A DNA stretch of 64,000 nt from Acidihalobacter sp. (lineage in GTDB: Bacteria > Pseudomonadota > Gammaproteobacteria > DSM-5130 > Acidihalobacteraceae): contig JALUXU010000024.1 of assembly GCA_027013225.1 (NCBI GenBank), positions 1-64,000 on the forward strand, given 5' to 3'. The position numbers were made by a program, and so were the translations under genes. Under the pieces are notes generated by a model. The model saw only the letters and a list, made by a program, of their open reading frames with translations, did not search any database and was not told the DNA's origin. This document shows positions 54,515 through 57,239 of this stretch, in pieces; position 1 is the stretch's first letter, and every line of letters begins with the position of its first letter.

Positions 54515-55705
54515 TCAGGTGTTCGGCAGATCGCGGCCCATGCCGGATTTCATTTTTCTGGCCGGCAGGTACCAGCTCAGTCCATCGATCAGCATGGCCG
54601 CGCCGGCGCCGATCATGAGCCAGTCGCTCCAGGCATAGGGGCCGCCCCCGAGCGTTTTGTGCATGGCCAGGCCAAGGCCGATGAAGCTCACGCCGGTGCG
54701 AATCCAGGAAAGGCCGGTGCGGGCACGGGCATAGATGGTGCGCTGGATGGCGCCAAGGGTTCTTTGCGCGGCCATCATGTTGCGTTCACGCGCCAGGTAG
54801 GTGCGCTCCTTGCTGGCGGGAACGGGGGGCACATAGGAACAAAACGGCGGAATGGCGGCGGCGAGACGGGCGTGCGGGGTGTCGGCCGCCGCGTGCTCCA
54901 TCGGCCTTTCCGGCAGTTGATAATGCGCGGTGAAGCGGGTGGTGCGCTCCGTGATGTCTTCCAGCCCGCCTGCGCAGCTCAAATCCATGCGCGAACGGCG
55001 CACCTTGAGGTAGTCGATGAGGCCGATGCCAGCCAGAGCCAGTCCGGCGACGAGGATGGCGGCATGATGCGGCGCGAGGATATTGTCGTTGAGGCGGGTT
55101 AGGGCATTGGAGAAAGCGACCATGGCCAAGCCCCAGCGGAGCAGTTTGAGAGAGGTTCGCGCACGCGCGTGGCCGGTACGGTGGCAGGCGAGCTTGGTGC
55201 GCCACAGGGCCATGATGTTGCGCCAGTAGGCAAGTTCGGTACGTTCTATGCCGATGAGTTTTTCCGGGATGTCGTGCAGATAGTCGAGGATGAACCAGCG
55301 AACGTCTTCGCGCAGCGCGACCCGGTATTCGATTGCGGCATTGGGCAGGTGCCGCCGCACTTGCTCGCGCATCGCTTCGTTGCCGGGATCGGCGGCGGCG
55401 ATGATGACGGTATGGCCTTGTTGCATGACGGGAAACCACAGGCTCTGCCTGATGGCTTTGGCATCCAAGCCGGCGAACAGATGAGGCGGTACGGGGATGC
55501 GCTCGTCGTACTGGATGAATCGGCAGTCGTAATGTTTCGCCAGAACGTTAAGCAATGCGCAACGGTCGATGCCCAATTCCCGCAGTAAGATGCGCTCCAC
55601 TTCGACGCCGCGCGCTTGCGCGCTGGCTTCGGCGGCTGCGAGTTGCTCGGCGCTCAACCGCCCTGTTTCGATGAGCAGGGCGTAGGGAGAGTTTTCAATC
55701 GTCAT
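54515..55705 (-). CDS. MshEN/GspE_N-like domain fused to two DUF202 modules
   Basis: A 396-residue protein. Residues 1-145 look like the GspE_N/MshEN domain (LLIETGRLSAEQLAAAEASAQ, then CRFIQYDE), a fold that can bind c-di-GMP, although the usual Arg-Leu-Gly start is not clear. Two DUF202 modules follow. In each, Arg-Thr (or Arg-Asn, Arg-Trp) pairs recur every seven residues: Arg155, 162, 169, 176, 183, 190 and Arg301, 308, 315, 322, 329, 336. Each is followed by two membrane helices. It overlaps the next gene upstream by 11 bases. An extra 43-residue frame upstream is not supported. Confidence 0.75.
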   Translation of the reverse strand: MTIENSPYALLIETGRLSAEQLAAAEASAQARGVEVERILLRELGIDRCALLNVLAKHYDCRFIQYDERIPVPPHLFAGLDAKAIRQSLWFPVMQQGHTVIIAAADPGNEAMREQVRRHLPNAAIEYRVALREDVRWFILDYLHDIPEKLIGIERTELAYWRNIMALWRTKLACHRTGHARARTSLKLLRWGLAMVAFSNALTRLNDNILAPHHAAILVAGLALAGIGLIDYLKVRRSRMDLSCAGGLEDITERTTRFTAHYQLPERPMEHAAADTPHARLAAAIPPFCSYVPPVPASKERTYLARERNMMAAQRTLGAIQRTIYARARTGLSWIRTGVSFIGLGLAMHKTLGGGPYAWSDWLMIGAGAAMLIDGLSWYLPARKMKSGMGRDLPNT

Positions 55706-57239
55706 GGCAGTGTTGAACCTGCTTCCAGGCACTCTTGGGTTGGCCGTAATCCGGTTCGGCAATGTCGAAATCGCCGCTGCAATAGGGGAAGCGGCGCTTG
55801 AGCCGTTCTGCGCCCACATACCAGTGGAGGCCATCGGCGATCAAGTACAGGCCGATGCCCATGAGGGCGAAATCGAATATCGACCAGCCTATGTCGAAGG
55901 GGCCGAAGAAATTGAAATAAACGAGCAGGCCGGCGCCGACGGAAAGGATGCTGAAGCCGGTGCGGATCAACGCCATGCCGGTGCGCCCGCGCGCCAGCAC
56001 GGTGCGAAGGCGTGACATGGCGTTGCGCTTGTCGGCGAGCGTGGTGCGCTCCAGCGCGAGCCCCGTGGTGGCCCACACGCCTGGTTTGGCCTCAGGCGCA
56101 TAGGCTTCGGCCAGCGGGTCTTGCCCGGCGGCATACAGACAGCGGGAGGGAAAAATCTTGTCCCAAAGCCCTTTGCGGCCGTGAGCCTTGGCGACTACCT
56201 GACGGGCGCCATGGCCGGCTCCGCGCCCGGGCCAGTACCAATAAAAACCCTCGAGCAGCATGATTGCGCCGATGATGATCAGGCTCCAGTCGAATGCCGT
56301 CCACGGGCCGGGCGGGAACTTGCGGATGAAGCCGATGCCGATACCGGCGAAGACCACGCCGCTGCGGGCGAACGCCAGGCCGGTGCGGGCTTTGGCCATC
56401 AAGGTGCGAAGATAGGCAAGTAGGGTGCGTTCTTCGGCCATGGTGGTGCGATCGTTGGCCAGAAATCGGCGCCTTTCCACCGGTGAGAGCGCATCCCATG
56501 CTTCACGCAACGCCTCGGCGCTCTTTACCACCCGGCTGCGGGAAAAACGCATCGCACCGCCGGGCTCGCTCACCTGCAGGGCGGTATAGCCGGAAGGTAT
56601 TTCATAGGGGGGATAAGGCTTGATCGTATCGGCCACGCGCCGCGAAGGCAGATACCAGACCAGACCGTCGATCAGGGCGGCGATGCCGAGGAACAGCAAG
56701 ATGGCGTCAAAAATCAGGAAGTCGCCGTCGAGGCCGAAAAAGCGCAGGAAGGCGACCGCGATGCCCACGAAGGCTATGCCGGTGCGGGCCAGCGCTAGAC
56801 CGGTGCGGCTGCGCGCGAACTGGGTGCGCTGGGCGGCATAATCCGTGCGCAATACCGCGAGATAGGTGCGCACCAGCGCCAAGGGGGTGCGCCCGCCCGA
56901 GATGGGGAATTCCGGGTTCAGGTCGGCGCTGTTTTCGATCAGCCGCACCACATCCGCGCAGGTGGCCAGACGCAGTTCCAGGTGGGTGACGCCGAGCGCG
57001 GCGCGGATGCGTTCGAGCAGATCCTGATCGTCCGGGGCGCAGACCACCACCACCGCCGTGTCGCGTTCCCGGGACAAAGGCAGCCAGCGTTCGGCGCGTA
57101 GCCGGTCGATATCGAGGTGTCTCAACAGGGCGCGCGGCGCGGTCAGTTTTTCATCGTATTCCACGGTCTGTCCGGCATGGGTTTGCGCCAGACGCTCGAG
57201 CTCGGCCTGTTTGGTCAATGCGACGGTGGCTGTGTCCAT
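55695..57239 (-). CDS. Triple DUF202 membrane protein with N-terminal partial GspE_N-like domain
   Basis: A 514-residue protein. Residues ~20-105 match the second half of the GspE_N-like domain of its neighbour (YDEKLTAPRALLRHLD). Three DUF202 modules follow, with Arg heptads at 124/131/138/145/152, 264/271/278/285/292 and 398/405/412/419/426, nearly all Arg-Thr. Each module ends in two membrane helices with a D/E-G-x-x-W-Y motif. The DNA shows the repeat as GGTGCG every 21 bases. DUF202 forms the channel of eukaryotic VTC polyphosphate synthase, so anion binding is possible. Its stop overlaps the next start. Confidence 0.75.
   Translation of the reverse strand: MDTATVALTKQAELERLAQTHAGQTVEYDEKLTAPRALLRHLDIDRLRAERWLPLSRERDTAVVVVCAPDDQDLLERIRAALGVTHLELRLATCADVVRLIENSADLNPEFPISGGRTPLALVRTYLAVLRTDYAAQRTQFARSRTGLALARTGIAFVGIAVAFLRFFGLDGDFLIFDAILLFLGIAALIDGLVWYLPSRRVADTIKPYPPYEIPSGYTALQVSEPGGAMRFSRSRVVKSAEALREAWDALSPVERRRFLANDRTTMAEERTLLAYLRTLMAKARTGLAFARSGVVFAGIGIGFIRKFPPGPWTAFDWSLIIIGAIMLLEGFYWYWPGRGAGHGARQVVAKAHGRKGLWDKIFPSRCLYAAGQDPLAEAYAPEAKPGVWATTGLALERTTLADKRNAMSRLRTVLARGRTGMALIRTGFSILSVGAGLLVYFNFFGPFDIGWSIFDFALMGIGLYLIADGLHWYVGAERLKRRFPYCSGDFDIAEPDYGQPKSAWKQVQHCHDD

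Follow-up and report, generated by a model that had tools for sequence, protein, structure and literature searches.

A gene pair with five DUF202 modules and a six-level arginine ladder, possibly a tethered counterpart of the VTC membrane sector

The yeast VTC complex is a pentamer with a Vtc1:Vtc3:Vtc4 stoichiometry of 3:1:1, in which the polyphosphate channel is built from five TM1 helices and its lining contains basic residues at seven-residue spacing (K24/R31, K698/R705, and K622/R629) (PMC9911596). Ordinary bacterial DUF202 proteins of the YidH type (PF02656) consist of one module with three TM helices and no extra domain; the third helix is a trait of the usual members and not part of the Pfam model. 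To our knowledge, bacterial DUF202 proteins are almost uncharacterised. Deletion of E. coli yidH, a DUF202 gene, raised total iron and lowered NADPH in a screen, which is among the few phenotypes for the family (PMC4054840). A second group of described proteins comprises the MshEN/GSPII domains of MshE, PilF (GSPII-A/B), the N-domain of GspE/XpsE, and the GAF-MshEN-T2SSE ATPases. The c-di-GMP-binding MshEN motif is made of two 24-residue RLGxx(L/V/I)... stretches and exists in strict and relaxed versions (PMC5013675), and the GSPII domains of PilF without this motif do not bind c-di-GMP (PMC12002112).

The window, that is, the whole 64,000-nucleotide stretch of Acidihalobacter sp. DNA analysed here, carries two adjacent genes that join both kinds of domain. 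The coordinates and reading frames given for 54515-57239 in an earlier note on this DNA are right, and the features are as follows.

55695..57239, minus strand: gene 1 (P0001), 514 aa; truncated GSPII/MshEN domain and DUF202 modules M1, M2, and M3.
56931..57149, minus strand: C-terminal half of the GSPII/MshEN domain of P0001, aa 31-103; Pfam MshEN 7.5e-10, profile positions 10-82.
56631..56912, minus strand: M1 (P0001); Arg levels R117, 124, 131, 138, 145, and 152 (56784-56891).
56199..56492, minus strand: M2 (P0001); Arg levels R257, 264, 271, 278, 285, and 292 (56364-56471).
55788..56090, minus strand: M3 (P0001); Arg levels R398, 405, 412, 419, and 426 (55962-56048); 18 of 18 species have Thr at level 1 (aa 391).
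55695..55705, minus strand: overlap of the two genes, 11 bases; gene 2 ATG at 55705, gene 1 stop at 55697-55695.
54515..55705, minus strand: gene 2 (P0002), 396 aa from the ATG at 55705; full GSPII/MshEN domain and DUF202 modules M4 and M5.
55271..55684, minus strand: full GSPII/MshEN fold of P0002, aa 8-145; Pfam 1.6e-11; both c-di-GMP motifs lost.
54980..55264, minus strand: M4 (P0002); Arg levels R155, 162, 169, 176, 183, and 190 (55136-55243).
54533..54826, minus strand: M5 (P0002); Arg levels R301, 308, 315, 322, 329, and 336 (54698-54805).

A longer reading of gene 2 from its first ATG (439 aa) is probably overlong, because the ortholog starts match position 55705. The overlap of the two genes is also present in most of the relatives' pairs by sequence comparison, and translational coupling is probable. 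The neighbours in the window encode a glycolate-oxidase-type Fe-S protein, a cytochrome b N-terminal protein, a HAD hydrolase, and an APH-type kinase, and are ordinary and unrelated. The start of gene 1 shows a peculiarity among the orthologs. The best start is AUA, AUU, or AUC in 13 of 18 species (L054, L055, L056, L057, L058, L059, L060, L061-L064, L066, and L069), mostly about 7 bases past GGAG, GAGG, or GGGG, unlike the ATG of the window's own gene 1. In L055, L057, L058, L060, and L066, no ATG, GTG, or TTG lies upstream of the conserved EYDE region, and the codon changes there, 7 synonymous and 0 non-synonymous between L055 and L057, resemble those of coding sequence. Conserved non-AUG starts are rare, and this one suggests that the expression of gene 1 may be tightly limited.

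The Pfam profile search identified DUF202 (PF02656) in three stretches of P0001 (E 8e-14) and two stretches of P0002 (E 7e-9), with 52.2 and 36.4 bits respectively, above the curated cut-off of 23.4. The reading of five modules made earlier from the letters thus agrees with the profile, as does its exact seven-residue arginine spacing with the alignment: the five modules align without gaps over the heptads, each has exactly six levels, and Arg occupies 29 of the 30 lattice positions. Each of the 29 is conserved as Arg in every one of 18 species (the window, L054-L067, L069, L109, and L110), which are spread over at least four families in two lineages of proteobacteria. Within the same helices, 18 of the 59 other arginines and 121 of 266 other positions are invariant. 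Arginine pairs at lag 7 number 16 in P0001 (mean 4.5 and maximum 12 in 5000 shuffles) and 11 in P0002 (mean 3.7 and maximum 11, again in 5000 shuffles). Chance as the origin of the heptads is ruled out by the shuffling together with the invariance of the arginines. The observation of the earlier note is confirmed, and the case for it is stronger than the note states. The heptad consensus is R-T-x-L/M-A-x-x, so that Arg and Leu/Met alternate at the 3/4 spacing seen in the core of left-handed helical bundles. The 21-base period (GGTGCG) that had been noticed in the DNA is real, with an identity of 0.358 at lag 21 and around 0.29 at other multiples of 3; it arises from the Arg-Thr codons, since 19 of 24 such pairs are encoded by CGCACC, the complement of GGTGCG.

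In single-module DUF202 proteins the Arg-Thr heptads number 2 to 4, in line with the earlier expectation of one module and fewer heptads, and the NERT...WIRT core that YidH-type members share with the modules corresponds to heptad levels 5 and 6. The heptads are therefore a family trait. What is special to the pair is the six-level ladder, the tandem arrangement of modules, and the loss of TM3. No further multi-module DUF202 ORF was present in 200 genomes of the phylum. The genome of the window also encodes one ordinary single-module DUF202 protein of about 124 aa (G000:C58:114004-114240, L001).

The link to VTC was followed through profiles. A mixed profile of the modules and ordinary DUF202 proteins matches Vtc1 (E 9e-7) and Vtc3 (E 3e-4) among PDB sequences, which bears out the DUF202-VTC relation given in the earlier note. 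By hhalign, the modules match ordinary DUF202 (E 1e-12) and ordinary DUF202 matches Vtc1 (E 2e-7); the direct alignment of the modules with Vtc1 is weak (E 0.012, probability 3.6), and a profile of the modules only does not reach VTC in the PDB, which indicates that the link runs through ordinary DUF202. The alignment register is shared throughout and equates level 4 with K24 and level 5 with R31 of Vtc1. Homology would thus put the level 4 and level 5 arginines in a pore, and the idea of an Arg stripe on a pore-lining helix gains support from these two residues.

Each module has two hydrophobic helices, and the third TM helix of ordinary members is absent. The AF2 models show per module one unbroken helix of 50-58 residues, which holds the ladder and TM1, followed by one helix of 27-39 residues. 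Mean pLDDT is 74 for P0002 and 67 for P0001 with 12-row alignments; the single-chain pTM values are 0.49 and 0.55 respectively, and the inter-module confidence is weak. TM1 is weakly hydrophobic in M1 and M4. With two TM helices, the N and C ends of a module lie on the same side and tandem copies can lie parallel; three helices would flip every second copy. From this topology we infer that the two-TM design keeps the tandem modules parallel.

The N-terminal domains were identified by structure as well as by profile. A Foldseek search matched P0002 to MshE (5htl_B; TM 0.69 by target, E 2e-4) and P0001 to MshE 5htl and XpsE 2d27 with probability 1.00 yet an E of about 0.02. By probability, the P0001 model matched only GSPII structures in the PDB and did not match VTC. 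An MshEN-type domain had been proposed for both proteins; the full fold is present in P0002, but P0001 retains only the C-terminal half and lacks the c-di-GMP-binding N-terminal half. In the distant relative L067, both proteins carry the full MshEN domain, including the N-terminal part. The 24-residue motif, strict or relaxed, is absent from all 36 proteins of the 18 species, and the NCBIfam model of the motif gives a score of 11, below its cut-off of 38. The fold is shared with the described MshEN/GSPII domains, whereas here the motifs are lost or the domain is half deleted, and the fusion partner is a set of membrane modules instead of an ATPase. Motif loss together with the PilF precedent makes a docking role the better guess. 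Sensing of c-di-GMP, as suggested in the earlier note, is rejected at the sequence level by the loss of the motif.

We tentatively favour, at a little short of an even chance, a reading in which P0001 and P0002 form a tethered, VTC-like, pseudo-pentameric, Arg-lined conduit for an anion, most likely polyphosphate (polyP), with the GSPII domains for docking. A single copy of P0001 (modules 1-3) would assemble with a single copy of P0002 (modules 4-5) into one pseudo-fivefold ring in the inner membrane, a covalently tied counterpart of the eukaryotic VTC membrane sector. In each module, the long first helix would run from the cytosol into the membrane with its arginine stripe toward the axis, and the five stripes in register would stack six Arg rings over about 52 Å (35 residues at 1.5 Å). 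Levels 1-3 would carry the ladder into the cytosol, and at levels 4 and 5 the rings would correspond to the pore residues of VTC. The rings may act as a cationic collar and channel entrance which draws in and guides an anionic polymer. The GSPII domains would be cytosolic docking domains and not c-di-GMP sensors. The substrate, most likely polyP from cytosolic PPK1 or else another anion, would move outward or be retained at the membrane, and its synthesis may be uncoupled or coupled through docking. PPK1 is present, and acidithiobacilli are known to form polyP granules (PMC5826283); polyP as the substrate is plausible.

Compared with the VTC membrane sector (PDB 7YTJ, 8I6V, and 9UMG), both systems use DUF202-type units with TM1 basic residues seven apart, and the five units per VTC ring are matched in number by the five modules of the gene pair in every carrier species, an equality on which the earlier note is silent. 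The anion idea of that note remains plausible and gains strength from the VTC register and the count of 3+2 modules. The two systems differ in other respects: VTC has separate units of three TM helices each and about two basic levels, whereas the pair has 3+2 fused modules of two TM helices each and six Arg levels; VTC has SPX and TTM domains with a polymerase, and the pair has GSPII domains and no polymerase. Pfam found neither an SPX domain nor a Vtc4-type TTM polymerase (PF09359) in P0001 and P0002, and PF09359 is absent from all 8 of the carrier genomes searched, so that any polyP must come from a separate enzyme. The pTM of 0.49-0.55 of the AF2 chains, the missing TM3, the failure of the modules-only profile to reach VTC, the lack of a polymerase, the weakly hydrophobic TM1 of M1 and M4, and the lack of an adjoining phosphate gene count against the favoured reading. 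That the pair is the first dedicated bacterial polyP (polyanion) channel, a covalently tied VTC-like pentamer with a six-tier Arg ladder and no fused polymerase, is a more doubtful proposition.

The occurrence of the pair bears on a related reading, in which the five-module Arg-lined ring conducts or gates small anions (phosphate, sulfate, or chloride) instead of polyP and is of use to acidophiles. The pair occurs in acidophiles that oxidise sulfur and iron; its named carriers are acidophiles or organisms of acid habitats, and the membrane potential of acidophiles is often inside-positive; this setting, the Arg ladder, and the absent polymerase domain all fit such a channel. An alignment-based contig search gave 12 named loci with the pair, in Acidithiobacillus, Igneacidithiobacillus, and one Deltaproteobacteria MAG (a single-sequence query gave none). 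Four relatives also carry the pair, as do two genomes from another family. In the acidithiobacilli order (the order of G468), 16 of 31 genomes have it, and their species are partly those of the named loci. No further genome in two samples, of 369 and 399 genomes, showed it, and a plasmid search gave no match. This patchy presence within the acidithiobacilli order argues against a general acidophile need, and six stacked Arg rings exceed what a small-anion filter requires, which makes the small-anion channel an unlikely alternative. Some single-contig genomes of the carrier genus are without the pair, a patchiness that loss or gain could produce. The pair in the Deltaproteobacteria MAG (L067, 9875-12750) has about 47/42% identity and represents an old outgroup or else was transferred; L067 comes from the Sandtown sample series, as does the Acidithiobacillus MAG L060.

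The gene neighbourhoods bear on whether a pore exists at all. The Arg helices could instead form a scaffold that binds anionic lipids, RNA, or an acidic partner, with the GSPII domains recruiting a secretion- or pilus-type partner. Related GSPII domains do occur in GAF-MshEN-T2SSE ATPases, which carry the very half retained in P0001; Arg repeats are able to bind many anions, and the AF2 models show no pore. However, among 17 loci no operon partner is conserved between lineages and no conserved secretion gene stands next to the pair; no phosphate gene adjoins it either. The lack of neighbours common to the lineages points to a self-contained complex. The strict six-level register across five modules and the arginines at the 3/4-spaced core position, which is pore-lining in the VTC homologues, also speak against a non-pore scaffold, and we consider it improbable.

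The joint complex of P0001 and P0002 is itself inferred, and each protein could instead form homo-oligomers of its own, such as dimers or trimers, in which case the 3+2 count would be accidental. Against this stand the overlap of the genes and the constancy of the pair: in all carriers seen, the 18 species and the other sampled ones, the two genes are adjacent and always 3+2, with no fused or single version among them. In the module tree, built from a short alignment with rough support and one ordinary DUF202 sequence as outgroup, the copies of M1, M2, M3, and M4 group by position into one clade each, and for M5 such a clade is compatible with the tree. The five positions thus look fixed and non-equivalent, and the ordered five-module design either predates the split of the lineages or moved as a unit. 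Separate homo-oligomers are accordingly a poor prospect. A c-di-GMP-controlled anion channel, for which the MshEN fold of P0002 speaks, is hardly credible given the deleted binding half of P0001, the motif found in 0 of 36 proteins, and the failure of motif-less GSPII domains to bind (PMC12002112).

The literature searched contains no description of tandem DUF202 modules or of a function for this pair. Under the tethered VTC-like reading, the 3+2 = 5 module total and the stack of six Arg rings give firm and easily tested predictions. If such a ring is true, the pair would offer, with two genes, a prokaryotic model for the translocation of polyanions, would suggest a route for polyP across the bacterial inner membrane, and would tie in with the polyP-based metal tolerance of biomining acidophiles.
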